Assembly: GCF_030499535.1 (NCBI RefSeq)
Contig: NZ_JASTLB010000001.1
Span: 6,820,001 to 6,884,000, forward strand
Reading direction: 5' to 3'
DNA: 64,000 nt
Origin: Streptomyces sp. TG1A-8
Lineage (GTDB): Bacteria > Actinomycetota > Actinomycetes > Streptomycetales > Streptomycetaceae
Shown: positions 26,248 to 40,641 of the stretch, in pieces
Layout of the letters: each line of letters starts with the position of its first letter
How positions within the stretch are numbered: position 1 is the stretch's first letter
Program-made: the position numbers and the translations under genes
The notes under the pieces: model-generated
What the model saw: the letters and a program-made list of their open reading frames with translations, nothing else
What the model was told of the DNA's origin: nothing
The model's database searches: none

Positions 26248-27837
26248 TCAGTCGGGACCGGTCAGGGAGGACTGCACCTGAGGATGGTCGACGAGCCAGT
26301 CCTGGAGTTCCCGGTGACGGAACTGGTAGGCCATGCCAGAGATGCGCAGAAGTCCCGTTTGGTAGGCCTGGTGGAGGAAAGTGCCGAGTCTCCAGGGGAG
26401 TCGGCCTCTGGGGCAACACAGGAACACCAGATAGCGGCGGCCGGCGCCCCCTTGCAGGTACATGCCCCACGTCAGCCCAACCGCCAGCCCGCCCGTTACG
26501 CCGCTCGTCGGCCCGAGTGTTGTCCCGAACGTCAGTCCGCCCGTCAGTGCAGCCCCCAGCATGATCATCAATCCGAATTGGAGATCGTCTCTGACGGGGT
26601 GGCGGGGGTCGGTGGGCGGCGCGATGCTGGTACGCGAGGCGGTGTTTGCCGCGGAATCGGTCAGCCCCAGCATCAGTCCGCTCGTTACAGCGCCGGCCAG
26701 CCCCAAGGCGAGCGCGCCCGCCAGCCCGAACCTCACCGTGCCCGCCAGCCCGCTCGTCAGTGCACCCGCCAGCCCGAGGTCGGCGGGATCCCGGAGGCAG
26801 GCGAGGGTGTCGGGGTGACGTTGCTCGTAGACGGTGACGGCCAGGTTGAGCCGCCACGGGGTGTCCAAGGAGTGGGCCAGGATGCTGTCGGGATCTGTGG
26901 CCAGGGTGTTGTAGACGGGTTGCCAGCGCCGGGGATTGGTGGTGCGGGCGGTGAGGTAGGCGTTGGCCTGGTTGTGATCGACGGGGTCGATTTGGACGCG
27001 GGCGGCCTCGCGCAGGCGTACGTCCACGGCTGCCAGATCCGTGTACTGCGCGGTGCGGCAGGTCAGGATGACCGGCGCGCTGCTGAGGGCGTTCTGGTAG
27101 GCGTTGAGCTGGTCCATGACCCGGGCGGCGCGGCGGCGGCCGACGGGGGTGCCGTCGGGGTCCATCTCGTCCAGGCCGTCCATGACGGGCAGGATCCGAT
27201 GCTGGTCGACCAGGGCGCGGGCATCGGCGGGGGTGATGCCCCGGGCACGGAAGCGTTCGCTGATTTGCTCGGCGATCCACCAGCGCAGCGGTTGCACGGT
27301 GTCCCAGCTGGTGAGTGAGAGACGGACCGGGACTGGATCGGTGTTCGTGCGGGCAGGGTCGGCCAGGACGGCGAGTAGCAGGTGCAGGGCGAGCAGAGTT
27401 TTGCCGGCACCGGGTTCGCCGGTGATGACCAGTCGGGTGGGCTGCAACCGCCGGTAGTAGCGCAGTACATCGCTGAGACGACCCTGGGGCTCGGCGCCGG
27501 ACGCGTTGTTGGCCGGGTCCGGATGGTAACGGAACGCCAGATCGATACGGTGGCCGCCCAGGCCGAGCAGCTGCTGAACTTGGTCCGTCTCGGAAGCGAG
27601 GACCGCCGCCGCCAGGACTCTGGCCTTCGCGTCCAGGTCCGAGGCCGCCTCATCGCGGTCGCCGCGGTAGGCGAACCAGGCCAAGACGGTGCCGGGCGCG
27701 GTGAGCACTACCCCCATGAGGGTGACGGCCATGGACGCCGCATGGAAGTGTTTGGACAGCCACAGTGCCAGCGTCAGGCTCGTGATCAGCGTCCCAAGAA
27801 AGATCAGACCCACGCGGCGCGTACGAGATCTCACCAT
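26248..27837 (-). CDS. Membrane NACHT-domain NTPase
   Basis: A 529-residue NACHT protein. Two N-terminal membrane helices (about 8-55), then a NACHT NTPase with Walker A TRLVITGEPGAGKTLLALHL and Walker B RILPVMDGLDEMDPDG, and a sensor-like PVILTCRTAQY. The middle has Gly/Leu/Ala-rich repeats (LGLAGALTSGLAG, FGLAGALALGLAG, GGLTFGTTLG) that look like closely packed membrane hairpins. It ends in YQFRHRELQDWLVDH, the usual end of Streptomyces NACHT proteins. ATG 27837 has GGGGAGG 9 bp upstream. Roles in signalling or phage defence are known for NACHT proteins; this one is untested. Confidence 0.85.
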   Translation of the reverse strand: MVRSRTRRVGLIFLGTLITSLTLALWLSKHFHAASMAVTLMGVVLTAPGTVLAWFAYRGDRDEAASDLDAKARVLAAAVLASETDQVQQLLGLGGHRIDLAFRYHPDPANNASGAEPQGRLSDVLRYYRRLQPTRLVITGEPGAGKTLLALHLLLAVLADPARTNTDPVPVRLSLTSWDTVQPLRWWIAEQISERFRARGITPADARALVDQHRILPVMDGLDEMDPDGTPVGRRRAARVMDQLNAYQNALSSAPVILTCRTAQYTDLAAVDVRLREAARVQIDPVDHNQANAYLTARTTNPRRWQPVYNTLATDPDSILAHSLDTPWRLNLAVTVYEQRHPDTLACLRDPADLGLAGALTSGLAGTVRFGLAGALALGLAGAVTSGLMLGLTDSAANTASRTSIAPPTDPRHPVRDDLQFGLMIMLGAALTGGLTFGTTLGPTSGVTGGLAVGLTWGMYLQGGAGRRYLVFLCCPRGRLPWRLGTFLHQAYQTGLLRISGMAYQFRHRELQDWLVDHPQVQSSLTGPD

Positions 27838-28045
27838 GGGGGGCATCCTCCCCACACCATGCTGCCCGGTCAGGCACTCACTCCGACTGCCACCGGACCG
27901 TGACGATCCGGAGACAAGTCACGTCGATGAAGGAGCCGGTCCTTCAGGAGTCGTCGAGGACTGCCGCGTCATCGGGTGACAGTCGGGGTTCATGCAGCGA
28001 CTGCTGGGTGAGGGGGCCATGGGGGTTTCGTACTCGACGGGTGTC

Positions 28046-28721: not shown

Positions 28722-30194
28722 TCACAGCCACGTGTGGACCACGGCGGCGGCCTCGTCGAAGCCGACGCGTTCGGTCAGCTGCCGTTCCGCGGGGATGTAC
28801 GAGTGGCGGAACAGGTCGTAGACACCGCTGGAGCCGACCGACAGCAGGTCCTTGACCGGCGCGTTCAGCACCGACTTCACGTACTGTTCGGACACCCCGC
28901 CCTGGCTGAAGACGTCGGCGGCGTACAGGGTGCGGACCTTCGCGCCGGCGCGTGCGAAGAACATGGGCGTGCCCGCGATCATGCCCCCGGTGTCGATGCC
29001 CGCCACGAGGTCGGCTTCGGACGGCTGGCCGTGCCGCCGTAGCAGATCGGTCCAGCCGTCCCTCAGCCGGGTGGTGTAGACGAGGGAGCCGGGGCCCACC
29101 AGGGGCTTGACGCCGGCGTGGAGCAGGACGCTCACGCAGAGCGCCACGGACGGGATGATCTCCTCACGTCGCAGGTGGTCGCAGAGGGCCGCGCGCTCCA
29201 GCGGCACCCTGAGATCGCGGAACCGGGCGTCGGCGGGTACGAGGTCCGGTCCCTCGACGTACATCCTGAGCAGTTGCCGCCGGCCGGGGCGCCGGCGCCA
29301 GAAGAAGTGCGTGCCCTTGCCGGCGGCCTCGTCCCAGGCGACCGTGATGCCGCGGAAGGCGTCCAGGACCCGGCCGCGGAAGGAGGCGTCGAGGAGCGCG
29401 GCGGAGAGGGCGTTGTCCTCCGGGAGCAGGTCGAGCAGGCACTCACGCGTGACGTCCTCCATCGTGGCGTACAGCAGCTCGGGGAGTCGCGGTCGCAGCG
29501 CGGGTGAGAACAGCAGCGGCCAGGTCGCCCGTAGGGCGACGGCGAGCTGGTCGCGGTGCCGGTGGGTGTGCGCGTGGTCGAGGCCGTTCAGGGTGGCCTG
29601 GTACCCGGTGAGGAACTCCTGCTCGTCGGGGCCGAAACGGCTCCAGCGCTTGAGGGCGCGCAGCCGCTCCACGAAGTCGAACGGCCGCACGGGAGCGTAG
29701 TACATCGCGTCCCGGTGTTCCTTGGCGGCGAAGTACGCGACCGTTTCCCCCCGGTACCGGAAGCCGCCGCGCATGTAGTGGTTGCCGGGGGCCACGTTGC
29801 TGCACGACAGCGTGATGACGGGGCGCCGGGGGCCCGCTCCGGTCAGGCGGTCCGCGTTCGCGATGATGTTCGTGCCCAGCAGCAGCGGGTGGTTGAGCAA
29901 CTGGTGGTGGTCGACGATGTTCACGGCCCGCACGTCGGCGGCGGTAACCGGGTTGGCCGGCGCGGCCGGGCCGAACGCCTGGGCCAGGACGCGGCCGACC
30001 GCCGCCGCGAACCGTCCCTGCCGCGCGGCGTGCACCGGGTCGACGTGTGCCGGGTGCAGTTCGGCCGCGTACTCGCCCAGGCTCGCCCCGATCTCGAAGT
30101 ACGGTGCCATGCTCGGCACGTACCGCCGGATCTGCCCGACGATCTCGTCGAGGCTCGCCCGTACCTGCTTCTCGTCCATGTCCGCCTTCGTCAT
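28722..30194 (-). CDS. 490-aa protein of unknown family coupled to HypF
   Basis: ATG 30194 overlaps the hypF stop by ATGA, so it is the last gene of the HDO-hypE-hypF operon. The soluble product has no recognised domain. Notable segments are NIVDHHQLLNHPLLLGTNII, ITLSCSNVAPGNHYMRGGFR, LNGLDHAHTHRHRDQL, GKGTHFFWRRRPGRRQLLRM and VAGIDTGGMIAGTPMFFARA. The clustered His (DHAHTHRH) and the HHQ and SCSN stretches look like catalytic or metal-binding sites. Codon use is normal and the frame intact. It could be the enzyme that uses the HypE/HypF product; that is inference only. Confidence 0.85.
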   Translation of the reverse strand: MTKADMDEKQVRASLDEIVGQIRRYVPSMAPYFEIGASLGEYAAELHPAHVDPVHAARQGRFAAAVGRVLAQAFGPAAPANPVTAADVRAVNIVDHHQLLNHPLLLGTNIIANADRLTGAGPRRPVITLSCSNVAPGNHYMRGGFRYRGETVAYFAAKEHRDAMYYAPVRPFDFVERLRALKRWSRFGPDEQEFLTGYQATLNGLDHAHTHRHRDQLAVALRATWPLLFSPALRPRLPELLYATMEDVTRECLLDLLPEDNALSAALLDASFRGRVLDAFRGITVAWDEAAGKGTHFFWRRRPGRRQLLRMYVEGPDLVPADARFRDLRVPLERAALCDHLRREEIIPSVALCVSVLLHAGVKPLVGPGSLVYTTRLRDGWTDLLRRHGQPSEADLVAGIDTGGMIAGTPMFFARAGAKVRTLYAADVFSQGGVSEQYVKSVLNAPVKDLLSVGSSGVYDLFRHSYIPAERQLTERVGFDEAAAVVHTWL

Positions 30195-32497
30195 GCGGAG
30201 GCACGGGCCCGGGCGGCGGCGACCATCGCCTGACCGACCGAAACGCCCCCGTCGTTCGTGGGGATCCGGCTGTGGGTGTGCACCCGCAGGCCGGCCCCGG
30301 TCAGTTCCTGCTCACACCGGATCAGCAAGTGCTGGTTCAGGAAGACGCCGCCGCTGAGGACGACGTCCCGGATCCCGCTGTCCCGGGACAGGCGGAGACA
30401 CACCTCGACCACCGCGTGCACCACGCTCTCGTGGAAGGTGCGGCTCACCTGTGCCGCGCTCAGTCTACGGTCGCCCACGTCCGCCAGAAGGCCTTCCAGC
30501 CACGGTCGGTGGTCGACGACGAGCCGGTCGTCCTCCTCCCGCAGACGCAGCGGCCACGGGGCCGCCGAGCTGTGGTCCCAGGCGATCAGCTGCTCGAGTT
30601 CGATGGCTGCCTGGCCCTCGTACCCGACCTCCTCGCAGACGCCGAGCAACGCCGCGTAGGCGTCGAACAGGCGGCCCATGCTGGACGTCTCGGGAGCGTT
30701 GATGCCGCGCTCGGTCATCTTCACCAGCACCTCGACCTCGAAGGGGTCGCGACGGCTCAGCAGGTCGAGCCCGAGGTCCGCCATGTCAGCGCCGAAGTGC
30801 TGGGCCAGCAGGGCGATCGCGACCCGGGCGGGTTCCCGCACGGCCCTGTCGCCACCGGGCAGCCGGAAACGGGCCAGGTGCCCCCGTCGTTCGAAGCCCC
30901 GGTAGTCGCCGATGAGGAACTCGCCTCCCCAGACGGTCCCGTCCAGGCCGTATCCGGTGCCGTCGAAGATGACACCCAGGACGGGTCTGTCCAGCCCGTT
31001 GTCCGCCATGCACGATGCCATGTGGGCGTGGTGGTGCTGGACGGCGACGGTGTCCACGGCGCAGGAGCGGGCGTAGCGCGTGCTGTGGAAGTCGGGGTGC
31101 AGGTCGTGCGCGACGTACGCCGGCGTGACGCCGAAGATGTCCCGCAGGTGGTCGATGGTGTCCGCGAAGAAGCGCTGGTTGCCCGGTGACTTCAGGTCGC
31201 CGATGTGCTGGCTGGGGTACAGGGAGTCGCCACTGCCGAGGCAGACGGTGTTCTTCAGTTCGGCGCCCACCGCGAGCACGGGGGGCAGCGGGAACGGCGC
31301 GGGGACGGGGTCGGGGGCGTAGCCCCGGGCCCGGCGGATGAAGGTGACCTTGGGCTCGGTCGTGCTGTGCACGACGCGCGCGATGGAGTCGTCGACGCGC
31401 ATGTGGACGTCCCTGTCGTGGACGAGGAAGGCGTCGGCGAGGCCCCGCAGCGCGCCCAGTGCCTCCTCCTCGGTACGGGCCATGGGCTCGTCGGGGGCGT
31501 TGGCGCTGGTCGCGATGAGGACGGGCGCGACGGCGTCGAGGAGGAGGTGCTGCAGCGGTGTGGCCGGCAGCATGAAGCCGAGGGTCGGCGAGCCGGGGGC
31601 GACGTCCGGGGACAGCATCGTGTCCGGACGGGCCCTGAGCAGCACGATGGGGCGTCCGGGCGACTCCAGCAGCCGACGTTCCTCGTCGTTCAGCACGGCG
31701 TGGCGGGTGACGGTCGAGGCGTCCCGCGCGAGGAGGGCGAAGGGCTTGGCGCTGCGTTCCTTGCGGGCGCGCAGCTCGGTCACGACGGCCGCCTGGGACG
31801 GGTCGGCCATCAGCTGGTAGCCGCCCAGGGCCTTCACCGCGAGGATGCGTCCGTCCCGGAGCATCGCCGCCGCGGCGGTTACGGGATCCTCGCCGGACGC
31901 GGTGCCGTCCGGCAGCAGCAGGCGGACCCGTGGTCCGCACGTCCAGCAGGCGTTGGGCTGGGCGTGGAAGCGGCGGTCGGCGGGGTCCTCGTACTCGGCG
32001 CGGCACCGGGCGCACATGGTGAACGGAGCCATGGTGGTCCGGGGACGGTCGTAGGGGAGGCCGTGGATGATGCTGTAGCGCGGTCCGCAGTTGGTGCAGT
32101 TGATCAGCGGGTAGCGGTGGCGGGGGTCGCCCGGGTCGAACAGTTCCCGGACGCAGTCGCCGCAGACGTGGCTGTCCGGAGTGACCAGGGCTCCCGTGGC
32201 GCCGTCCGAGCGACTGTGCCGGATGGTGAAGGAGGCGGTCCAGTCGCCCACCGGTTCCTCGGAGAGCAGCGCGCACGAGTCGATGCGCGCCAGTTCGGGC
32301 AGGTGCTCGGGCAGGCTCTCCGTGAACCGTTCCGCCGCCCGCCGCGGCCCCTCGACCAGGATGGTGACGCCGCGGGTGTCGTTGAGCACCCAGCCGCCCA
32401 GCATCAGCCGGGTGGCCAGGCGGTACACGTACGGTCGGAAGCCGACTCCCTGTACGAACCCGGTCACCCGGAGGGTCCGGCGCACACCCGCGGCCAT
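30191..32497 (-). CDS. hypF: HypF carbamoyltransferase
   Basis: A 768-residue, full-length HypF. The N-terminal acylphosphatase domain has FVQGVGFRP (Arg21) and Asn39. Four CxxC pairs (112/115, 134/137, 162/165, 184/187) form two zinc fingers. A YrdC-like domain (about 200-385) includes ILAVKALGGYQLM and IVLLRARPDT. The C-terminal Kae1-like domain has VQHHHAHMASCMADN and DVVLSGGVFLNQHLL. It carbamoylates the HypE C-terminal cysteine from carbamoyl phosphate and ATP. ATG 32497 overlaps the hypE stop by one base. All signature residues are present, so it should be active, yet no hydrogenase genes are nearby. Confidence 0.95.
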   Translation of the reverse strand: MAAGVRRTLRVTGFVQGVGFRPYVYRLATRLMLGGWVLNDTRGVTILVEGPRRAAERFTESLPEHLPELARIDSCALLSEEPVGDWTASFTIRHSRSDGATGALVTPDSHVCGDCVRELFDPGDPRHRYPLINCTNCGPRYSIIHGLPYDRPRTTMAPFTMCARCRAEYEDPADRRFHAQPNACWTCGPRVRLLLPDGTASGEDPVTAAAAMLRDGRILAVKALGGYQLMADPSQAAVVTELRARKERSAKPFALLARDASTVTRHAVLNDEERRLLESPGRPIVLLRARPDTMLSPDVAPGSPTLGFMLPATPLQHLLLDAVAPVLIATSANAPDEPMARTEEEALGALRGLADAFLVHDRDVHMRVDDSIARVVHSTTEPKVTFIRRARGYAPDPVPAPFPLPPVLAVGAELKNTVCLGSGDSLYPSQHIGDLKSPGNQRFFADTIDHLRDIFGVTPAYVAHDLHPDFHSTRYARSCAVDTVAVQHHHAHMASCMADNGLDRPVLGVIFDGTGYGLDGTVWGGEFLIGDYRGFERRGHLARFRLPGGDRAVREPARVAIALLAQHFGADMADLGLDLLSRRDPFEVEVLVKMTERGINAPETSSMGRLFDAYAALLGVCEEVGYEGQAAIELEQLIAWDHSSAAPWPLRLREEDDRLVVDHRPWLEGLLADVGDRRLSAAQVSRTFHESVVHAVVEVCLRLSRDSGIRDVVLSGGVFLNQHLLIRCEQELTGAGLRVHTHSRIPTNDGGVSVGQAMVAAARARASA

Positions 32498-33507
32498 CAG
32501 CACAGCCTCGGCAACTGGGCGCCGTACAGCAGGTCCACGGGACGGACCCTGCCGTCCGTGCCGGTCATGGCCACGGTCCCCGGCTCTCCGGCGACGACCT
32601 CCCCCACGACCGCGGCCCGTGCGCACGGCGGGTGGGACCGCAGTGCCGCCAGTGCCGCGTCCGCGCGGTCCGCCGCCACGACCAGGCAGAGGTTGCCCTC
32701 GTTGGCGAGGTACATCACGTCGACGCCGAGCATGTCGGCGGCCATGGCCGTCTCCGGCCGCACCGGCAGGGCCGGTTCGTCCAGGAGGAGGGAGACCGAC
32801 GACGCCTGGGCGAACTCGTTGACGACCGTTCCGAGACCGCCCCGGGTGATGTCGCGCACGCAGCGCACGCCGTCGCCGCACGCGTCGAGCACGTCGGCGA
32901 CGACGTGGCTGAGCACCGCGCAGTCGCTGTGCACGCGCTGCTCGAAGCCCAGGCCCTCCCTGAGGGAGAGGATGTGGATGCTGTGGTCTCCGAGGTGGCC
33001 GGTGACGATGACGCGGTCGCCCCACCGCAGGTTCCGGCTGGACAGCACGAAGGGACGTTCGAGCAGTCCGACACCGGTGGTGTTCAGGAAGATCCCGTCG
33101 GCCTCCCCGCGCCGGACGACCTTCGTGTCGCCGGCGACGATCTTCACGTCCGCAGCCCGGGCGGTGTCCCTGACGGACCGCAGGATGCGGCGGAAGTCGT
33201 CGAGGGGGAAGCCTTCCTCCAGGACGACGGCGAGGGTGAGGAACAGCGGCCGGGCACCGCTGACCGCGAGGTCGTTGACCGTGCCGGCGACCGCGATCTT
33301 GCCGATGTCGCCGTTGCCGAAGAAGACGGGGTCCACGACGAACGAGTCGGTGGTCATGGCTATCCGGGTCCCGGACAGTTCCAGCAGGGCGCTGTCCTCC
33401 ATTTGTCCGACGTAGGTGTCGCCGAGGATCGCGGCGATCGTGTCCGTGATGAGTTCCTGACTCATCCCGCCGCCGGCTCCGTGGTCCAGGAGCACCTTCT
33501 CTGTCAC
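32497..33507 (-). CDS. hypE: HypE thiocarboxamide dehydratase
   Basis: A 336-residue PurM/AIR-synthase-like protein. LLDHGAGGGMSQELI at the start, ALLELSGTRIAMTTDSFVVD, GDIGKIAVAGTVNDLAVSGA and VAGDTKVVRRGEADGIF are HypE landmarks. It ends in QLPRLC, the conserved C-terminal PRxC tail whose cysteine is carbamoylated by HypF and dehydrated with ATP to a thiocyanate. The retained terminal Cys argues for catalytic use. It starts 34 bp after the diiron protein gene and abuts hypF. Confidence 0.95.
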   Translation of the reverse strand: MTEKVLLDHGAGGGMSQELITDTIAAILGDTYVGQMEDSALLELSGTRIAMTTDSFVVDPVFFGNGDIGKIAVAGTVNDLAVSGARPLFLTLAVVLEEGFPLDDFRRILRSVRDTARAADVKIVAGDTKVVRRGEADGIFLNTTGVGLLERPFVLSSRNLRWGDRVIVTGHLGDHSIHILSLREGLGFEQRVHSDCAVLSHVVADVLDACGDGVRCVRDITRGGLGTVVNEFAQASSVSLLLDEPALPVRPETAMAADMLGVDVMYLANEGNLCLVVAADRADAALAALRSHPPCARAAVVGEVVAGEPGTVAMTGTDGRVRPVDLLYGAQLPRLC

Positions 33508-33541
33508 GCGCGTGGCCTCTCCGCTCGGCGTGGGGATGGGG

Positions 33542-34258
33542 TCAGGCAGGGGTACCGACGCGCTCCGGCATGGCCTTTTCCAGCAGGGCGTCCCACCACA
33601 CCCGCATCACCTCGATGGCGTCCAGGGCTCCCCGGCGGACCCGCTCGCGGTCGATGGCCTCGCCCTCGGGGAACTCCTGGCCGCTCTGGTCGAGGTCGAC
33701 GAAGGCGGCGAGGCCGTCCTTGTGCCCCTGCTCGATGCCGTCGTCGAGGTGGATGTCGTGGAACCGCTTGATGAGGCTGCCCTCGTAGGCGTGGCCGCGG
33801 CGCTCGCTGATCTCGCGGCAGATCTCGAAGAAGGTCTCGTGTTCGAAGATCGCCGCGGTCTCGGTCGCGTAGAGGGCGCCGAGGGAGCGGGACGGGTCCG
33901 GTGAGCACAGGTCCGCCACGTCGGACAGGAACGCCGTGGTCGCCGGGAACTCCACGCGCCGGTCCATGTCGGTCCCGACGTCGAGCATGCCCTGCTTGTA
34001 CATCGGGGCGTGGCCGTCCTCCTCGTCCACGTTGCGCTGCAGTTCGGCGGACACCCCGTGTTCGGCGAGCTTCTTGGTGCACTCCACGGCGGTCAGGAGG
34101 AGGTCCTTGTTGGCGAAGGAGAACTGGTAGTGCTCCATGACCAGCCATTCCAGGGTTTCCGTGTCGAGGCTGGAAAGACTGTCGAGGATCTTGGTCTTCA
34201 CCGCGCTGGTGAACGCGTCGTTCACGGCGTCGATCTGGGCTGACAGACGCTCGGACAT
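33542..34258 (-). CDS. Haem-oxygenase-like diiron oxidase/oxygenase (HDO)
   Basis: A 238-residue all-helical protein of the TenA/CADD-like HDO fold. Likely metal ligands are in MEHYQFS, NVDEEDGHAPMY, ATETAAIFEHETFF and RFHDIHLDDGIEQGH, the E-H-E-H-D-H pattern of diiron HDOs. Characterised members N-oxygenate amines, cleave C-C bonds or form nitriles from amino acids. ATG 34258 has AGAGGTG upstream; a longer frame to 34420 would pass through the control region. It is first in the leftward operon, directly before hypE. Confidence 0.8.
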   Translation of the reverse strand: MSERLSAQIDAVNDAFTSAVKTKILDSLSSLDTETLEWLVMEHYQFSFANKDLLLTAVECTKKLAEHGVSAELQRNVDEEDGHAPMYKQGMLDVGTDMDRRVEFPATTAFLSDVADLCSPDPSRSLGALYATETAAIFEHETFFEICREISERRGHAYEGSLIKRFHDIHLDDGIEQGHKDGLAAFVDLDQSGQEFPEGEAIDRERVRRGALDAIEVMRVWWDALLEKAMPERVGTPA

Positions 34259-34371
34259 GCTGCACCTCTGGTGGATTGAGGGAAGGGCACGGGATCGCGC
34301 CCCGATGAGCCCGCCGAGTCCGGCAGTTGGGCGCGACAGCACAGAAGTCGTGCGAGCCGAGGCGAGACTAG

Positions 34372-34463
34372 TCATACGCATGACCGTGCCGCAAGGGTCG
34401 GATTGCTCCTGTTCTCCCACGGCACTTCATGCGTTACAGTCGGGCTCGCTCATACGCATGACC
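34372..34463. promoter_or_regulatory. Repeated LacI-type operator in the divergent control region
   Basis: The exact 14-mer TCATACGCATGACC occurs at 34372-34385 and 34450-34463, and a third related site TCATGCGTTACA begins at 34427. Each has the form TCATnC|GnATGA, a dyad with central CG like LacI-family operators. They lie between the divergent HDO-hypEF and hydrolase operons. The LacI regulator at 39622-40641 is the obvious candidate binder. Confidence 0.6.
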
Positions 34464-34523
34464 AGCAAGCGTCCCGGGCGCCGGCAATGGGCGGGCGCCC
34501 CTTCTCCACGGGCGGAAGTGAGC

Positions 34524-35108
34524 ATGTCCCGATACGCGATCCTGACCAATGACCTGCAGCGCGATCTGGTCGACAAGAACCCGCAGCGCAAGGCGAACGT
34601 GGAGCGGATGACTCCGCATTTCGTCCGGTTCCTGGCGGAGCTGCGCGAGCTGCACGTGCCGGTCATCCACCTGCAACTCGTCTACGACGTGGGTGACAAG
34701 AAGGTCGAACTGCACGACGGTCGGATTCCGGTGCTCCGGGGCACGGAAGGGGCGGAGCTGCTGCCTGAGTTCGTGCACCCCTCCGACGTTGTCATGGAGA
34801 AGAAGAAGGACAGTGGCTTCTTTGAGACAAAGTTGCACGAGTTCCTTCAGGAGCACGGCGTCGACACGGTGATCATCACCGGCATGCAGGCCCAGGTGTG
34901 CATCCAGACGACCGCCGCCGACGCCCACTTCCGCGGCTACAACGTGGTCGTCCCGTCCGACGGTGTCGTCTCCACCCGGGACGAGGACCGGGCGCGGGCC
35001 CTGGAATGGCTCGCCTCCTACTGCGCCGTGATCCTTCCCATGGCCGATGTGGTCACCCGTGTCCGGGAGGGCGCGGGCTTCGACTTCTCCGTGCCCGCCC
35101 TGCCGTAG
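34524..35108 (+). CDS. Isochorismatase-like cysteine hydrolase
   Basis: A 194-residue cysteine hydrolase. AILTNDLQRDLVDKNP gives the catalytic Asp10, VVMEKKKDSGFFETKL the Lys, and IITGMQAQVCIQTTAADAHF the nucleophilic Cys126. Relatives hydrolyse amides, carbamates or ureido groups (nicotinamidase, N-carbamoylsarcosine amidase). That chemistry would suit a pathway handling carbamoyl or cyano-derived groups. ATG 34524 follows GGAAGTGA. It is the first gene of the rightward operon, facing the HDO gene. Confidence 0.88.
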   Translation: MSRYAILTNDLQRDLVDKNPQRKANVERMTPHFVRFLAELRELHVPVIHLQLVYDVGDKKVELHDGRIPVLRGTEGAELLPEFVHPSDVVMEKKKDSGFFETKLHEFLQEHGVDTVIITGMQAQVCIQTTAADAHFRGYNVVVPSDGVVSTRDEDRARALEWLASYCAVILPMADVVTRVREGAGFDFSVPALP

Positions 35109-35137
35109 CCGACCGTGTTCCCGAGGGAGTTGACCGC

Positions 35138-36055
35138 GTGATGGACAGCATCGGCCGCCCCGGCGCACGGATCTGGAACGGACTCGCCCTGCCGGCCGGC
35201 GCGGCGGGGAACCCGGACGTGGTGGTGGTGGGCGTGCCCTTCGAGGGCGGTGCGGGAGGTGCGGGTGGCGCGTCCCTGGGGCCGGCGCGCGTGCGCGAGC
35301 TGTCGGTGCGGCTGAAGACCACCGACCGCCGCGGCCGGGACGCCTCCCACCTGGACCTGCTCGACCTCGGCGACGTGGAGACCTGGCGTTTCGACCTCCC
35401 TCGCAGCATCGAACAGGTGGGCAAGACCTACCGGTCGCTGTTCGACGAGGTGTCCGTCCCCGTGCTGACCTTCGGCGGCGACCACTCGGTGACCTATCCG
35501 ATCGTCCGTTCCGCAGCGCGCGGGCGCGACCTCGGACTGGTCTGGTTCGACGCCCACCCGGACCTCCTGGACGGCTATCAGGGGTCGCACCTCTCGCACG
35601 GGTCCCCGCTGCGCCGGATCATCACGGACGGCGCCGTCGATCCCGCGAACGTACTGCTCGTGGGGACGCGCGCCTATGACCCGGGCGAAGTGGAGTTCAT
35701 CCGCGAACACGGGATCGGCGAGGTGTCGGCGGCCGCCTTCACGGACGACCCGGCCGCCGCCACCGCGGCGTACCGCCGCCGTCTCGAGGACATCGCCGGT
35801 CGGGTCGACGCGTTCTACGTCACGGTGGACATCGACGTCATGGACGCCTCCTGCGTGCCCGGCACCGGTACCCCGGTGGCCGGCGGCATCGGCAGCGGGC
35901 AGTTGCTCGGTCTGCTGGAGGCGCTTCCCGAGCCGGTCCTCGCCTACGACGTGGTCGAGTTCGCGCCGGCCCACGACGTCGGCGGTATGACCGGCCATGC
36001 GGTCCTGGCCCTCACCACGGCGGTCCTGGCCCGGATCGCGGCCGCCCGCGGCTGA
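35138..36055 (+). CDS. Arginase/agmatinase-family ureohydrolase
   Basis: A 305-residue binuclear metal hydrolase. FGGDHSVTYP (His116), LVWFDAHPDLLDG (Asp138, His140, Asp142) and YVTVDIDVMDAS (the DxDxxD pair) are all intact, followed by GTGTPVAGGIGSGQLLGLL. The family cleaves guanidino groups to urea and an amine. GTG 35138 lies 8 bp after GGGAG; ATG 35141 is the alternative. It is 29 bp after the cysteine hydrolase gene. The substrate is unknown, but nitrogen-rich, guanidine-like chemistry is implied. Confidence 0.9.
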   Translation: MMDSIGRPGARIWNGLALPAGAAGNPDVVVVGVPFEGGAGGAGGASLGPARVRELSVRLKTTDRRGRDASHLDLLDLGDVETWRFDLPRSIEQVGKTYRSLFDEVSVPVLTFGGDHSVTYPIVRSAARGRDLGLVWFDAHPDLLDGYQGSHLSHGSPLRRIITDGAVDPANVLLVGTRAYDPGEVEFIREHGIGEVSAAAFTDDPAAATAAYRRRLEDIAGRVDAFYVTVDIDVMDASCVPGTGTPVAGGIGSGQLLGLLEALPEPVLAYDVVEFAPAHDVGGMTGHAVLALTTAVLARIAAARG

Positions 36056-36111
36056 CCTGTGTGCGCGCACCGACCCGACATCCGCTCATCCCTTCGCTGA
36101 GGAGCCTCGCC

Positions 36112-36681
36112 TTGGACGTCGTGACGGCCGTCCTGACCCGTCGCAGCATTCACACGCTCCGCGACCCCGCCCCGTCGGACCGGGAGTTCACCTACCTCCT
36201 CAAGTGCGCCGCCGCGGCACCTGACCACGGCAGATTGCGTCCCTGGCGCTGGGTGCTGCTGCGGGACGCGGAGCTGGAGGCGCTCGGTGCGCGTCTGGCC
36301 GCCGACGCGGAGCCCGGGGAACGGGCCCGCGTCGCACAGGGGGCCAGGCGGGCACCACTGAAGGCGGTGCTCATCTTCTGCCCCCTGACGGACCACAAGG
36401 TCCCCGAGTGGGAACAACTGGCCGCGGCCAGCTCCGTCGCGTACGGCTTGATGTTGCTCCTACACGCTCGGGGTTTCGGCAGCATGTGGCGCACCGGACG
36501 GCTGTGCCGGAGCCCGGCGGCGCGTGACCTGCTGGGCGTCGGTCCGGCAGAACGGCTGCTGGGCGCTTTGGACATCGGGACGTCCGACTCCTCGGAGCGG
36601 CCCGTGCGCCGGAGCGTCGGGGACGTCGCCGACCGCGTGCGGCGCCTGGGCCCGCTCGCGGTGACGGGCCCGGTCGCCTGA
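36112..36681 (+). CDS. Nitroreductase-family flavoprotein
   Basis: A 189-residue FMN protein of the short YdjA-like type. TRRSIHTLRDPAPSDREF is the N-terminal FMN-binding segment, CAAAAPDHGRLRPWRWVLL the second, and LHARGFGSMWRTGRLC, LGALDIGTSD the C-terminal part. It reduces nitro groups, quinones or similar acceptors with NAD(P)H. The start TTG 36112 is chosen because GAGGAG lies 7 bp upstream and homology starts there; GTG 36061 would add 17 residues. It follows the ureohydrolase directly. Confidence 0.85.
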   Translation: MDVVTAVLTRRSIHTLRDPAPSDREFTYLLKCAAAAPDHGRLRPWRWVLLRDAELEALGARLAADAEPGERARVAQGARRAPLKAVLIFCPLTDHKVPEWEQLAAASSVAYGLMLLLHARGFGSMWRTGRLCRSPAARDLLGVGPAERLLGALDIGTSDSSERPVRRSVGDVADRVRRLGPLAVTGPVA

Positions 36682-36765
36682 GCCGGTGAGCCCGGACCGG
36701 TTCGGCCCCGCAGTCCGTGACGCCGTCCGCATCCCGGTCACCCAGCACGGAGGAGAACACCGATC

Positions 36766-38079
36766 ATGCGTTCGCGGACAGGGGATTCACCCGGCGCGGC
36801 GGACACCGCGCCGGGTGCGCGGAACGGCCGCGGACGGGCCGGCCGGATGCTGGGCTGGCTCCCGGACTCGCGGGCGGGGAGGGCCTTCCTGCTCGTCGCG
36901 TTCGTCGACGCGTTCGGGAAGGGGTTCTTCCTCGCCGGGTCGACCCTCTTCTACACCCAGGTGGTCGGGCTGAGCGCCTCTCAGGTGGGGCTCGGACTGT
37001 CCGCGGCGGCACTGCTGGGTGTGTTCTGCGCCATTCCCATCGGCTGGCTCGCCGACCGGATCGGGGACAGCCGTACGCTGATCCTGTTGCAGGTGTGGCG
37101 CGGCTGCGGCTTCCTGGTGTACCCGTTCGTGACGGACTTCGGGACGTTCCTCGCGGTCGCCTGCCTGATCGGCACGGTCGAGCAGGCGGTCGGACCGATC
37201 ATCCAGTCCGTCGCGGGCACGACGGCCGGGGAACGATCGCTGGTGCGGGCCATGGCCGTGATCGCGGCCGTGCGCAACGTGGGGTACACGCTGTCCGCCG
37301 TCATCGCCACCGCGGTCATCTCACTGGCCGGCACGCACACCTACGTCAGCTTCGTCCTCGCCAACGCCGCGGCCCTGTTCGGCAGCGCCGCGCTGCTGAC
37401 CCGCCTGCGGACCGAGGCACGGTCCCCGTCCTCCGCCGGGCGCTCCCGGCCGGGCCTGCCGCTGCTGGTACCGCTGAGGGACCCGCGCTTCCTCCTGCTG
37501 TCGCTGGCCAACGGGGTCCTGTACCTGCACGTGCCGATCCTGTCGGTGGCGCTTCCCCTGTGGATCGTCAGCCGCACCGACGCGCCGCGCGGCGTGGTCG
37601 GCATCGCCCTGGCGGTGAACACGATACTGGCGGTCGTCCTGCAGGTGCGGCTGAGCAAGGGCGGCGAGAGCGCGACCGGAGCGGGCCGCAAGCAGCGCGC
37701 CGCGGGAGTGGCACTGGCCGTGTTCAGCGTGCTCACGGCCGTCACCGCCTCGATGGACGCCCGTGGGGCGGCGGCACTGCTGCTGCTCGCGGCCGTACCG
37801 CTCACCCTCGGGGAGCTGTGGCAGTCGGCCGGGGGCTGGGGCATCTCGTACAGCCTCGCGCCCGAGGCGCAGCGCACCTACTACCTGAGTGTCTACCAGC
37901 TCGGCGCCACGGTCCTCACCGTGGCCGGCCCGGCAGTGCTGTCCACCCTCGTCGTGGGCACGGGCGCGGCGGGCTGGTTCGCCCTCGCCGTCGTCTTCCT
38001 GCTGGTCGGCCTGTCCGTCCCCTTCCTCGCCCGCGCACCCGAGCGGGGAACGGACGGCGACCTCGCGTCCGCCGACTGA
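36766..38079 (+). CDS. MFS efflux transporter
   Basis: A 437-residue protein with a 30-residue polar N-terminus and about twelve membrane segments. FCAIPIGWLADRIGDSRTLI is the MFS loop 2-3 motif. The central loop (RLRTEARSPSSAGRS) splits two six-helix halves. GGAGGAG precedes ATG 36766. Lying in the middle of a presumed biosynthetic operon, it is most simply the exporter or self-resistance pump of the product. Confidence 0.88.
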   Translation: MRSRTGDSPGAADTAPGARNGRGRAGRMLGWLPDSRAGRAFLLVAFVDAFGKGFFLAGSTLFYTQVVGLSASQVGLGLSAAALLGVFCAIPIGWLADRIGDSRTLILLQVWRGCGFLVYPFVTDFGTFLAVACLIGTVEQAVGPIIQSVAGTTAGERSLVRAMAVIAAVRNVGYTLSAVIATAVISLAGTHTYVSFVLANAAALFGSAALLTRLRTEARSPSSAGRSRPGLPLLVPLRDPRFLLLSLANGVLYLHVPILSVALPLWIVSRTDAPRGVVGIALAVNTILAVVLQVRLSKGGESATGAGRKQRAAGVALAVFSVLTAVTASMDARGAAALLLLAAVPLTLGELWQSAGGWGISYSLAPEAQRTYYLSVYQLGATVLTVAGPAVLSTLVVGTGAAGWFALAVVFLLVGLSVPFLARAPERGTDGDLASAD

Positions 38080-38249
38080 CTGCCGCCCCGGTCCCGCCCC
38101 TCCTTCCACGAAGGGAATCCTCGTGCACGACACCACGGTGTACCGCGGTACCTCACCCGGACGGCGTCCGTGTCCCCGGTCCGGCCACGGCCGTGTCCGC
38201 GCACGCCGGCGCGGTGGGCCGCACCGGCCGCCCCTGGTGTGAGGGCGCC

Positions 38250-38903
38250 ATGACACTTCCGCACGGCTGCCCCGACGACGAGCCGGAGTGGGCGCCGACC
38301 GCGCTGGCGGTCTTCGACATGGACGGCACCCTGCTGCCGGGCACCACGGCCTGCCGGCAGATCGCGCTCGTGGCCGAGGACCCGCTCGTGGTGGAACGCC
38401 TGGAGGGCGACTACCGCGACGGCCTCATCGACAGCACCGAGTTCGCCCGCCGCGCCCTGGCCTCGTGGGCACACGCCGGCCCCGGCCTGTACCGGCGGGC
38501 GTTCGACGCCTGCCCCAAGATCGGCGGAGTGGAGCGGACCCTCGCCTGGCTACGGGCCCGCTCGGTCGTCACGTGCCTGATCACCATGGCCCCCCGCCCG
38601 TTCGCGGAGTGCTTCACCGGCTTCGACCACGTGTTCGCCTCCTCGTACCCGGACGACATCCTCAATCCCGAGGACAAGCCGGAGGTGGTGCGCCGGCTGC
38701 AGCGACGGCTCGGGATCGACGGGATGCGGACGATCGCCTTCGGCGACTCCGACTCCGACATCCCGCTCTTCCGCGCCCTGACGCGGACCGTGGCGGTCAA
38801 CGCCACCCCGAACCTGGCGGCCATGGCGGCCCGCCGCTACGACGGCGACGACCTCTGGGAGGCGTTGCGCACCCTGTACGCCCTGCGGGAGCGGCAGCCG
38901 TGA
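38250..38903 (+). CDS. HAD-superfamily phosphatase, SerB-like
   Basis: A 217-residue HAD enzyme. ALAVFDMDGTLLPGTTACRQ holds the nucleophile and acid-base aspartates, CLITMAPRPFAECF motif II, NPEDKPEVVRRLQRRLGI the Lys, and MRTIAFGDSDSDIPLFRAL motif IV. The resemblance is to phosphoserine-phosphatase-like enzymes acting on small phosphates. It overlaps the next gene by GTGA. A 39-codon frame with a good ribosome site at 38123 lies in the 170 bp upstream but has no recognisable product. Confidence 0.88.
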   Translation: MTLPHGCPDDEPEWAPTALAVFDMDGTLLPGTTACRQIALVAEDPLVVERLEGDYRDGLIDSTEFARRALASWAHAGPGLYRRAFDACPKIGGVERTLAWLRARSVVTCLITMAPRPFAECFTGFDHVFASSYPDDILNPEDKPEVVRRLQRRLGIDGMRTIAFGDSDSDIPLFRALTRTVAVNATPNLAAMAARRYDGDDLWEALRTLYALRERQP

Positions 38904-39625
38904 CGCCCGCCCGCGTCATCGTCGGCGTCTGCCGCGCCTTCGAAGCCGACTTCCCCGGTCAGGCGCGCATCGTCGCGGGGGCCCTGCACCGGGCCGGCTG
39001 GGAGGTGGCAGTCCACCGTGACCTCGAGAGCCGGTTCCCGGACGGGGAGCTGCGGGTGGACCTGCCGGACGATCCCGCCGGCCGGACCGTGCTGCTCTGC
39101 CAGTCCACGACCGGCGACCACGGCCTCTCCGACCTGTCGCTCATGAGCCTGCTGGCGACCGCCCGGTGCTACCGGGAGCACGGCGCGGGCCGGGTCGTCG
39201 CCCTGCTGCCGCACCTGGCGTACGCCCGGCACGACCGGCACGTGCCGGGCCAGCGCAGGCCCGTCATGGCCGGCCTGCTCGCCGACCTCGCGACCGCCGC
39301 GGGACTCGGGGACATCGTGACCCTCGGGTCGGGCGCGCAGGACCTCGTGCGCGACCTGTTCGCCGGGGGCCGCACCCGGCTGACGTTCCTGCCCGTGCGC
39401 GACCTCCACCTGGGCATGCTCCGTGGCCTGGCCGGTCCGCGGACCGTCCTCGTCGCCCCCGACCGGGGCGCCGCCGCGCACGCCGGGGCGCTCGCCGCGG
39501 CACTGGGCCGCCCCGTATTGGTGGCCGACAAGCACCGCACCGGACCCGAACACGTGGACGTCGCCCTCCGGCTGGCACACGACGCCGACGAGGTGCGGCC
39601 AGCCGGCGGTGAGCGGGCCGGTCAC
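38900..39625 (+). pseudogene. PRPP-synthetase-like gene, 3'-truncated
   Basis: GTG 38900 overlaps the HAD stop codon. The frame matches ribose-phosphate pyrophosphokinases: SRFPDGELRVDLPDDPAGRT, LLPHLAYARHDRHVPGQRRP, VLVAPDRGAAAHAGALAAAL, VLVADKHRTG. It breaks off after VDVALRLAHDADEVR, exactly where the LacI stop codon lies, so the PRPP-binding VDDxxxTGGT loop and the C-terminal domain are absent. The open frame continues to 39880 as antisense of lacI. Either it is a dead truncation or a retained half-enzyme; a dead truncation seems more likely. Confidence 0.7.
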
Positions 39626-40641
39626 GGTCCGTACGGGTCGGCCGGGACCGGGCCGGTGGAGTCCCGGACCACCAGCCGCGCCGGCAGTTCGACGGGAGCG
39701 ACGCTGTTGCCGTTGCGCAGCTCGATGAACATCTCCATGCCGCGGCGGCCGAGGTCGCCGAGCGGAAGCCGCACCGTGGTCAGGGAGGGCACGACCAGGG
39801 GCGCGAAGGGCAGGTCGTCGAAGCCGACCACGGACAGGTCCCGGCCGACGGCGAGTCCCGCGGTCCGGGCCGCGACGTAGACCCCCATGGCCATGGTGTC
39901 GTCGTCGCAGATGACGGCGGTCGGCCGCCCGGGGGACGACAGCACGGCCGTCATGCGGTCCTTGACCTCCCCCAGGAGGAGGGGGGAGACGACACGCGTC
40001 CCCTCCACCCCGGGGTGGCCGAGCACGCACTGGTCGAAGGCCCTGGCGCGCTGGGCGAACGTCCAGGCGGGGCGTTCCGCCCGCAGGTGCGCGATGCGGC
40101 GGTGGCCCAGGGAGACCAGGTGGGCCAGGGCGTCCGCCATGCCCTGGCCGACGTCCATGCAGACGGTCGGTGCCCGCGGGACCGAGGCGTCGTCGAGGAC
40201 GACCAGCGGAAGTCCCCTGGACAGATCGGCGACGGCATCGGCGGGCATCGAACAGGCGATGACTCCGTCGATCGCCTGTTTCGGAGCGGGAAAGGGCCCG
40301 TACCCGTCCTCCGCCGCCAAGGGGAAGACCACGACGCCCATGCCGCTCGCCGTGCCGACCGTGGCTATTCCGGTGTACACGTCTGCGAAGGCGGAATTGC
40401 CCAGTGTCGGAGTGACCAGGAGGACAGTTCCGGTGGCGCCGAGGCGCAGGCTGCGGGCGGCCTGGTTGACCCGGTACCCGAGGGTTTCGGCGGCGAGCGT
40501 CACGCGCCGGGCGGTTTCCTCGCGGATCCTGCCCTCCCACTTGCCGTTCAGGACGAGCGAAACCGTCGACTGCGACACCTGCGCCATGCGCGCCACGTCG
40601 TTGGCCGTGGCGGCACGGGACGGCGAACGGTATGCACTCAT
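39622..40641 (-). CDS. LacI-family transcriptional regulator
   Basis: A 339-residue regulator. ATANDVARMAQVSQSTVSLV with LNGKWEGRIREETARRV is the LacI HTH plus hinge, and the rest is a periplasmic-binding-like ligand domain (VICDDDTMAMGVYVAARTAG, LSVVGFDDLPFAPLVVPSLT, VRLPLGDLGRRGMEMFIEL). It faces the truncated PRPP-synthetase-like gene tail to tail and overlaps it. LacI proteins bind dyads with a central CG, like the repeats at 34372-34463. A 71-codon frame at 40638-40853 overlaps its start by ATGA but has no family signal. Confidence 0.9.
   Translation of the reverse strand: MSAYRSPSRAATANDVARMAQVSQSTVSLVLNGKWEGRIREETARRVTLAAETLGYRVNQAARSLRLGATGTVLLVTPTLGNSAFADVYTGIATVGTASGMGVVVFPLAAEDGYGPFPAPKQAIDGVIACSMPADAVADLSRGLPLVVLDDASVPRAPTVCMDVGQGMADALAHLVSLGHRRIAHLRAERPAWTFAQRARAFDQCVLGHPGVEGTRVVSPLLLGEVKDRMTAVLSSPGRPTAVICDDDTMAMGVYVAARTAGLAVGRDLSVVGFDDLPFAPLVVPSLTTVRLPLGDLGRRGMEMFIELRNGNSVAPVELPARLVVRDSTGPVPADPYGP

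Follow-up and report, generated by a model that had tools for sequence, protein, structure and literature searches.

A transferable CysHyd-HypE-HypF unit in Streptomyces sp. TG1A-8 suggests a dedicated small-molecule pathway departed from hydrogenase maturation

From our analysis of the window (the whole stretch of 64,000 nucleotides of Streptomyces sp. TG1A-8), the genes encoding HypE and HypF belong to a block which, on balance, is rather probably a pathway dedicated to a small molecule and based on a transferable unit that has departed from hydrogenase maturation. The true unit is wider than the block of the window and consists of a cysteine hydrolase (CysHyd), HypE, and HypF, hereafter the trio. 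The block comprises two divergent gene sets, with HDO, HypE, HypF, and U490 arranged on the minus strand as a single operon (spacing of +34 bases for HDO/HypE, −7 for HypE/HypF, and −4 for HypF/U490), and CysHyd, a ureohydrolase, a nitroreductase, an MFS transporter, and a HAD phosphatase on the plus strand, 265 bases apart from HDO. The features are as follows, the start positions of the nitroreductase and MFS genes being a computed choice.

28722..30194, minus strand: U490, predicted BshC-like / class I aminoacyl-tRNA-synthetase-fold ligase
30191..32503, minus strand: HypF, carbamoyltransferase with all domains (TIGR00143; alignments with PDB 3vth and 4g9i)
32497..33507, minus strand: HypE of PRLC type (TIGR02124; alignment with solved HypEs; tail GAQLPRLC)
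33542..34258, minus strand: HDO, putative haem-oxygenase-like diiron protein, DUF3865 (CADD-like) (weak DUF3865 match; PDB 3b5o)
34524..35108, plus strand: CysHyd, isochorismatase-family cysteine hydrolase (PF00857, 1.1e-36)
35141..36055, plus strand: arginase-family ureohydrolase (PF00491; solved relatives)
36112..36681, plus strand: nitroreductase-family protein (family match)
36847..38079, plus strand: MFS transporter (family match)
38250..38903, plus strand: HAD-family phosphatase (family match)
39622..40641, minus strand: LacI-family regulator, likely local (family match)

All the genes named in the initial annotation (HypF, HypE, HDO, the 490-aa protein U490, and the divergent genes) are present. 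The divergent operon it described holds for CysHyd, ureohydrolase, nitroreductase, MFS, and HAD, whereas the PRPP-synthetase-like protein it had added to them does not stand; the family match of that frame (~38900-39600) is partial, the rest is unrelated sequence running into the opposing LacI gene, and it was matched elsewhere (L006 and L008) only over the portion overlapping LacI.

It has been reported that HypF carbamoylates the tail cysteine of HypE and that HypE dehydrates the carbamoyl group using ATP, the tail, with a C-terminal motif published as PR(I/V)C, being the part which bears the thiocyanate or isothiocyanate (PMC4506123). Both proteins of the block scored above the curated cut-offs (HypF with TIGR00143, 763 bits vs 466; HypE with TIGR02124, 420 bits vs 252) with catalytic regions as in [NiFe] maturation, and their alignments with solved counterparts span nearly the full length. 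The acylphosphatase, zinc-finger, YrdC, and Kae1 stretches of HypF keep many residues invariant across 29 HypFs, all eight zinc-finger cysteines among them, and the block HypE aligns with solved HypEs through its final cysteine, which closes the PRLC tail; the earlier reading of a full-length HypF with its zinc-finger cysteines and of a HypE ending in a PRLC cysteine is therefore confirmed.

No hypA-D or hydrogenase genes were found among the annotated genes of the window (about 26-50 kb), as had been noted before. The whole genome (7.66 Mb, 4 contigs, completeness 100) gave zero matches for PF00374 ([NiFe] large subunit), PF01455 (HypC), and PF01924 (HypD), i.e., neither the HypC/HypD scaffold nor the large subunit of a maturation system, whereas in the controls the HypC and HypD profiles were each positive in 4/14 genomes and that of the large subunit in 5/14. 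HypE above the cut-off occurs in one copy, that of the block; on these searches, hydrogenase service by the block was rejected for the window. Three Streptomyces genomes (G045, G282, and G294) carry a hydrogenase locus with its own HypE, HypF, and HypD, plus a distinct HypE in the block; HypE and HypF of the hydrogenase locus are 44-48% identical to those of the block, so that the block HypE/HypF are a distinct set. In another genome (G349), HypE was accompanied by a partial HypD match and the large subunit was unmatched. Neither refuting condition of the initial annotation arose: the Streptomyces genomes tested that hold a [NiFe] large subunit carry another HypE, and homologues do not in all cases adjoin hydrogenase genes (two Paraburkholderia trios do).

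Maximum-likelihood analysis of 47 HypEs (unrooted tree, with a midpoint root for drawing only) does not group the block HypE with the 10 hyp-locus HypEs, one of which (L059) lies beside a partial HypD only; these are split from the 37 others, 15 of which are database proteins taken as sequences apart from their genomic context, with support of 100/100. The sequences end in PRLC in 37/37 vs PRIC in 10/10 hyp-locus HypEs, position 330 is Ala in 36/37 vs Glu in 9/10, and position 178 is His in 37/37 vs Ala in 9/10. All the 120 closest homologues listed (the best 120 of 7853, compared by sequence; 15 overlap the 37) also end in PRLC, and PRIC was found in 30/30 of the best Streptomyces HypE matches taken as loci. 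The block HypE is 44-50% identical to the 10 hyp-locus HypEs, and the altered tail of the trio HypEs is mostly GA[Q/E]LPRLC. Such a fixed change of the tail would be expected if the group goes to a different partner.

CysHyd, ureohydrolase, MFS (by blastp or annotation), HDO, HypE, HypF, and U490 occur together in each of the six window-type loci of Streptomyces examined at length (window, L005, L006, L008, L054, and L061; G282/L005, G349/L006, and G045/L008 are duplicate rows and were each counted once). Own genome included, U490 was found in 5/392 Streptomyces genomes and in 1/396 genomes across the phylum, while HypE was found in 227/392 Streptomyces genomes. The other genes are variable: a nitroreductase occurs in two of the six loci (window and L054), an ATP-grasp ligase in two (L005, with PF13535 and a weak LAL_C2 match, and L061), LacI near the block in five, and no HAD counterpart was found in the sequence examined on either side of the five other blocks. 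The nitroreductase or LAL-type ATP-grasp genes may be strain-specific tailoring. One window-type copy sits on the S. clavuligerus plasmid pF1D35B, and a 4 kb contig of a Dactylosporangium MAG carries a partial HypF, U490, CysHyd, and a partial ureohydrolase, all on the same strand. The patchy, partly plasmid-borne distribution together with the exporter fits a specialized-metabolite cluster, and with the dedicated HypE/HypF lends support to the earlier view of a non-hydrogenase, biosynthetic-looking cluster.

We used the block HypE to survey 33 Streptomyces genomes (27 non-block genomes with two HypEs and six chosen single-HypE genomes, of 227; the two-HypE genomes were picked from the HypE places listed, a part of all places) and found 10 HypEs at 51-56% identity to the block HypE. 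Nine of the 10 lie in CysHyd-HypE-HypF, without a match to HypA-D or hydrogenase among the genes examined (eight either side of HypE); L167, the tenth, is a usual hydrogenase locus. The nine are of two types, the genes of which were named from L158 and L162 alone, the remaining loci being assigned by clustering. In type A (L158-L161 and L166), an NRPS locus, there are also a serine-hydroxymethyltransferase-like enzyme (best NCBIfam match to fluorothreonine transaldolase, below cut-off), a protein resembling peptidase C26 / glutamine amidotransferase, and, in 4/5 by clustering, a 2OG-Fe oxygenase. Type B (L162-L165) carries an EctB-like diaminobutyrate aminotransferase, a GNAT, an M20 deacylase, a weak ATP-grasp-like protein, and a weak haem-oxygenase-like protein; the last was tried as a member of the HDO family of the window, and hhalign gave no significant match. 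Neither U490 nor HDO, nor a match to the ureohydrolase, was found among the genes examined at type A and B loci.

The trio was also found on plasmids. HypE (E <= 1e-60) occurs in 109 of 72,556 plasmid records, and among the best 40 of these 109 the top 10 are 55-83% identical to the block HypE, the next being at 49.6%. CysHyd (E <= 1e-30) occurs in 10 of the 72,556 records, the same 10 as the top HypEs, and on reading them the trio was present in every one: three Streptomyces, three Paraburkholderia, one Rhizobium (with a DMT transporter between HypE and HypF), two Citrobacter freundii, and one Salmonella enterica. The enterobacterial trio is the shortest form (LysR, CysHyd, HypE, HypF, HAD, and MFS); its HAD and MFS gave no blastp match at 1e-3 to those of the window, and the Citrobacter trio has no near DNA matches in E. 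coli genomes. No CysHyd was found in phages at E <= 1e-30. The initial annotation had proposed HDO or the 490-aa protein as the acceptor-side enzyme; as a general partner this was rejected, because among the 10 plasmids with the trio HDO and U490 were matched on the S. clavuligerus plasmid and on no other, and U490 also occurs in Patescibacteria, five tested genomes of which gave no HypE match. The neighbors of the trio vary greatly between types and point to no common substrate, which counts against our reading.

Two of the Paraburkholderia trios adjoin hydrogenase structural genes, and both plasmids carry a second HypE (two places each), while the P. sabiae plasmid has one HypE place, that of the trio, and a short HypC gene. 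In P. phymatum nodules, five genes of the trio locus are strongly lowered in the absence of NifA, which we count in favor of our reading; the values listed for a nifA mutant are −7.58 for ectB (Bphy_7266), −8.06 for a GNAT gene (7268), −6.29 for the cysteine hydrolase (7270), −5.17 for hypE (7271), and −7.47 for hypF (7272), with −4.74 for a separate hypF (7254) and lower values for hydrogenase genes too (PMC8305402). In the same nodule RNA-seq paper, lower 2,4-diaminobutanoate is tied to ectB (PMC8305402). The hydrogenase adjacency, the shared fall in the nifA mutant, and the single HypE of P. sabiae count against our reading, in that the trio may have a double role in Paraburkholderia.

The constant partner in every locus read with this type of HypE/HypF is CysHyd, which the initial annotation had assigned to the other, divergent operon. 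It is an isochorismatase-like cysteine hydrolase by family (PF00857) and by residues, with D10, K93, and C126, which we take to be the catalytic triad of the cysteine hydrolase family, invariant in 22/22 aligned trio members; N-carbamoylsarcosine amidase, biuret hydrolase, and RutB are among its relatives of solved structure. Conceivably, C126 could accept the cyano group, or CysHyd could hydrolyze a later intermediate.

U490 has no Pfam or NCBIfam match, and although Pfam includes a BshC model, U490 did not match it; the single sequence match to solved structures (E 0.2) was taken as chance, and Pfam gave nothing convincing for ten divergent CPR relatives. The predicted structure has the overall BshC / class I aminoacyl-tRNA-synthetase fold by VIA-align, which covers only the chains ranked by Foldseek; Foldseek with the U490 model returned nothing at E <= 0.001, and the structural alignment with BshC is at 8% identity. 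From this predicted fold, U490 is probably a ligase. Relatives of U490 were found in Patescibacteria, where HypE was present in 0/5 tested genomes (MAGs which may be incomplete); one of the five (G784) matched the [NiFe] large-subunit family. HDO matched DUF3865 weakly, slightly below the cut-off, and PDB 3b5o at E 2.4e-5. Across 28 aligned sequences, acidic and His residues are invariant at positions including E42, E79, H83, E133, E139, H140, H167, D168, H170, and D181, and these conserved positions are presumably metal-binding. A phylum search at E <= 1e-25 found the HDO family in the own genome alone (1/396); 218 database matches to the family include Legionella and Jatrophihabitans. The ureohydrolase is of the arginase family (PF00491 above cut-off), yet it is below the NCBIfam agmatinase cut-off, and its closest solved relatives are 3-guanidinopropionase and proclavaminate amidinohydrolase.

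From the intact residues of HypF and HypE, we infer that HypF would transfer the carbamoyl of carbamoyl phosphate, with ATP, to the C-terminal cysteine of HypE, and that HypE would dehydrate it to a thiocyanate, or leave it as a thiocarboxamide. HypE-SCN would be a plausible donor, as the initial annotation had held. CysHyd, replacing HypC/HypD, would meet the altered tail of HypE and move the cyano (or carbamoyl) group, by transfer or release, to a small nucleophile such as, most probably, an amino-acid amine, and the product of the trio would be a cyanamide, nitrile, guanidine, or urea; nevertheless, CysHyd might act at another step of the pathway. For type B and Paraburkholderia our guess for the acceptor is 2,4-diaminobutyrate or an acetylated form of it; acetylation (in type B followed through by deacylation) would be a putative protection of such an acceptor. 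In the window type, HDO would oxidize the scaffold, the amidinohydrolase-like enzyme would handle a guanidino-type intermediate, U490 would couple an amino acid, and export of the product would fall to the MFS pump; the guanidino intermediate is a guess drawn from the ureohydrolase being nearest to guanidinopropionase and proclavaminate amidinohydrolase.

In its general form, our reading is of a horizontally spread cyanylation cassette in which CysHyd hands HypE-bound CN, derived from carbamoyl phosphate, to diverse amino-acid-derived metabolites, giving nitriles, cyanamides, or guanidines independently of metal cofactor assembly, and we rate its chances as about even. Transfer of the carbamoyl group only, with HypE as an S-carboxamide from which CysHyd passes or trims carbamoyl to give a urea or carbamate and no cyanide, is a considerably less probable competitor; the solved relatives of CysHyd named above act on ureido/carbamoyl groups, and HypF-like carbamoyltransferases occur in antibiotic pathways (GdmN). 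To our knowledge, however, O-carbamoyltransferases work without HypE, and the full HypE kept in the trio, with the residues common to both HypE groups, suggests that dehydration is used. Alternatively, CysHyd might hydrolytically free cyanide, cyanate, or thiocyanate from the trio, to serve as toxin, signal, or nitrogen shuttle. This would suit the enterobacterial minimum, where only LysR, CysHyd, HypE, HypF, HAD, and MFS are found; we regard it as unlikely, as the Streptomyces trio loci read hold rich amino-acid or NRPS machinery and the HAD phosphatase would imply an organic phosphate intermediate.

HypE-SCN could supply cyanide to the iron of a new metalloenzyme, e.g., the diiron HDO, given that iron delivery is the established role of HypE and a probable iron enzyme adjoins it in the window type; but the own genome has no HypC/HypD match, HDO was matched on 1/10 trio plasmids (S. 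clavuligerus) and not seen at type A loci, and exporters are common neighbors of the trio, which makes this quite improbable. Least probable of all is that these are leftover or auxiliary hydrogenase maturation genes, an explanation which the two Paraburkholderia trios beside hydrogenase genes and, in the values listed, the NifA dependence shared by the P. phymatum trio with hydrogenase genes would favor. It is largely refuted for the window, as the own genome has no hydrogenase match, G045, G282, and G294 carry at the hydrogenase a further HypE/HypF pair that differs from that of the block, and the HypE split is deep and goes with the PRLC tail.

The block shares with the hydrogenase HypE/HypF the protein families, the conserved catalytic regions, and the terminal cysteine, and differs from them in having no HypC, HypD, or hydrogenase, in a tail of PRLC and not PRIC, and in its constant cysteine hydrolase partner. 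In the open-access literature, the nearest prior notice of the pair, in the accessible part of the source, is a decRiPPter candidate cluster with hypE and hypF, no other hyp genes, and an ATP-grasp ligase, for which a novel function was proposed; that part makes no mention of a cysteine hydrolase, a HypE clade, or a tail motif (PMC7794033). No earlier description of the trio, the clade, or the tail motif was found in the open-access literature, subscription papers and preprints being outside the search, so that prior work may exist. AetD is a member of the HDO superfamily, to which the DUF3865/CADD-like HDO of the window would also belong. Nitrile chemistry has been reported for AetD (PMC11611611). 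BshC and class I aminoacyl-tRNA synthetases share the predicted fold of U490 but no detectable sequence match with it, and their genomic context differs; as of a 2015 review, the ligation reaction of BshC had never been shown in vitro (PMC4360819). Proclavaminate amidinohydrolase and guanidinopropionase are likened to the window ureohydrolase as its nearest solved relatives.

On its predicted fold, U490 would be a new BshC relative. In the annotated trio plasmid records read, the genes are labeled ‘hydrogenase expression/formation protein HypE’ and ‘carbamoyltransferase HypF’; with such labels these pathways are easily missed, and hydrogenase potential may be over-called. If our reading is true, a reaction thought to be exclusive to hydrogenase assembly would serve more generally to attach cyano or carbamoyl groups to metabolites, and such pathways would be recognizable by the PRLC tail of HypE together with the partner gene. 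The trio clusters offer a definite set of candidates in the search for products.

Two further features of the window drew attention:
38900-39880, + strand, a PRPP-synthetase-like frame with family similarity over part of its length only
26248-27855, - strand, a NACHT-domain protein (domain match), next past U490, the 490-aa protein

Beyond its family-like part, the PRPP-synthetase-like frame consists of unrelated sequence reaching into the opposing LacI gene, and the frame looks truncated or degenerate. The NACHT-domain gene is separated from U490 by ∼0.9 kb, and no counterpart was matched at the other blocks.

For the plasmid of S. clavuligerus, the sequence record gives U490 as a pair of coding sequences:
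L061 14001-15472, U490 gene, two adjacent CDSs

In contrast to this split annotation, a full-length U490 protein bearing the S. clavuligerus name is present in the database. The U490 superfamily is large and divergent in Patescibacteria (loci L095-L112, L009-L013, and L093-L094), with members in 25 of 351 genomes. Across 58 aligned sequences, D95, H96, N109, N138, W225, F229, Y242, E246, G294, F298, W299, P348, and G367 (window numbering) are invariant.

The HypE locus L059 (G349:C46) carries only a partial HypD match, and a search of its genome for the [NiFe] large subunit gave no match, from which it is apparently a decaying hyp locus.

A distant relative of HDO, the haem-oxygenase-like diiron protein, sits within a gene cluster on another plasmid:
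L062, Streptomyces sp. NBC_01281 plasmid, distant DUF3865/HDO

Its cluster encodes an amidinotransferase, a cupin protein, a GFA-family protein, an arginine deiminase-like protein, and a nitroreductase, and by these genes is another HDO cluster of guanidine flavour.
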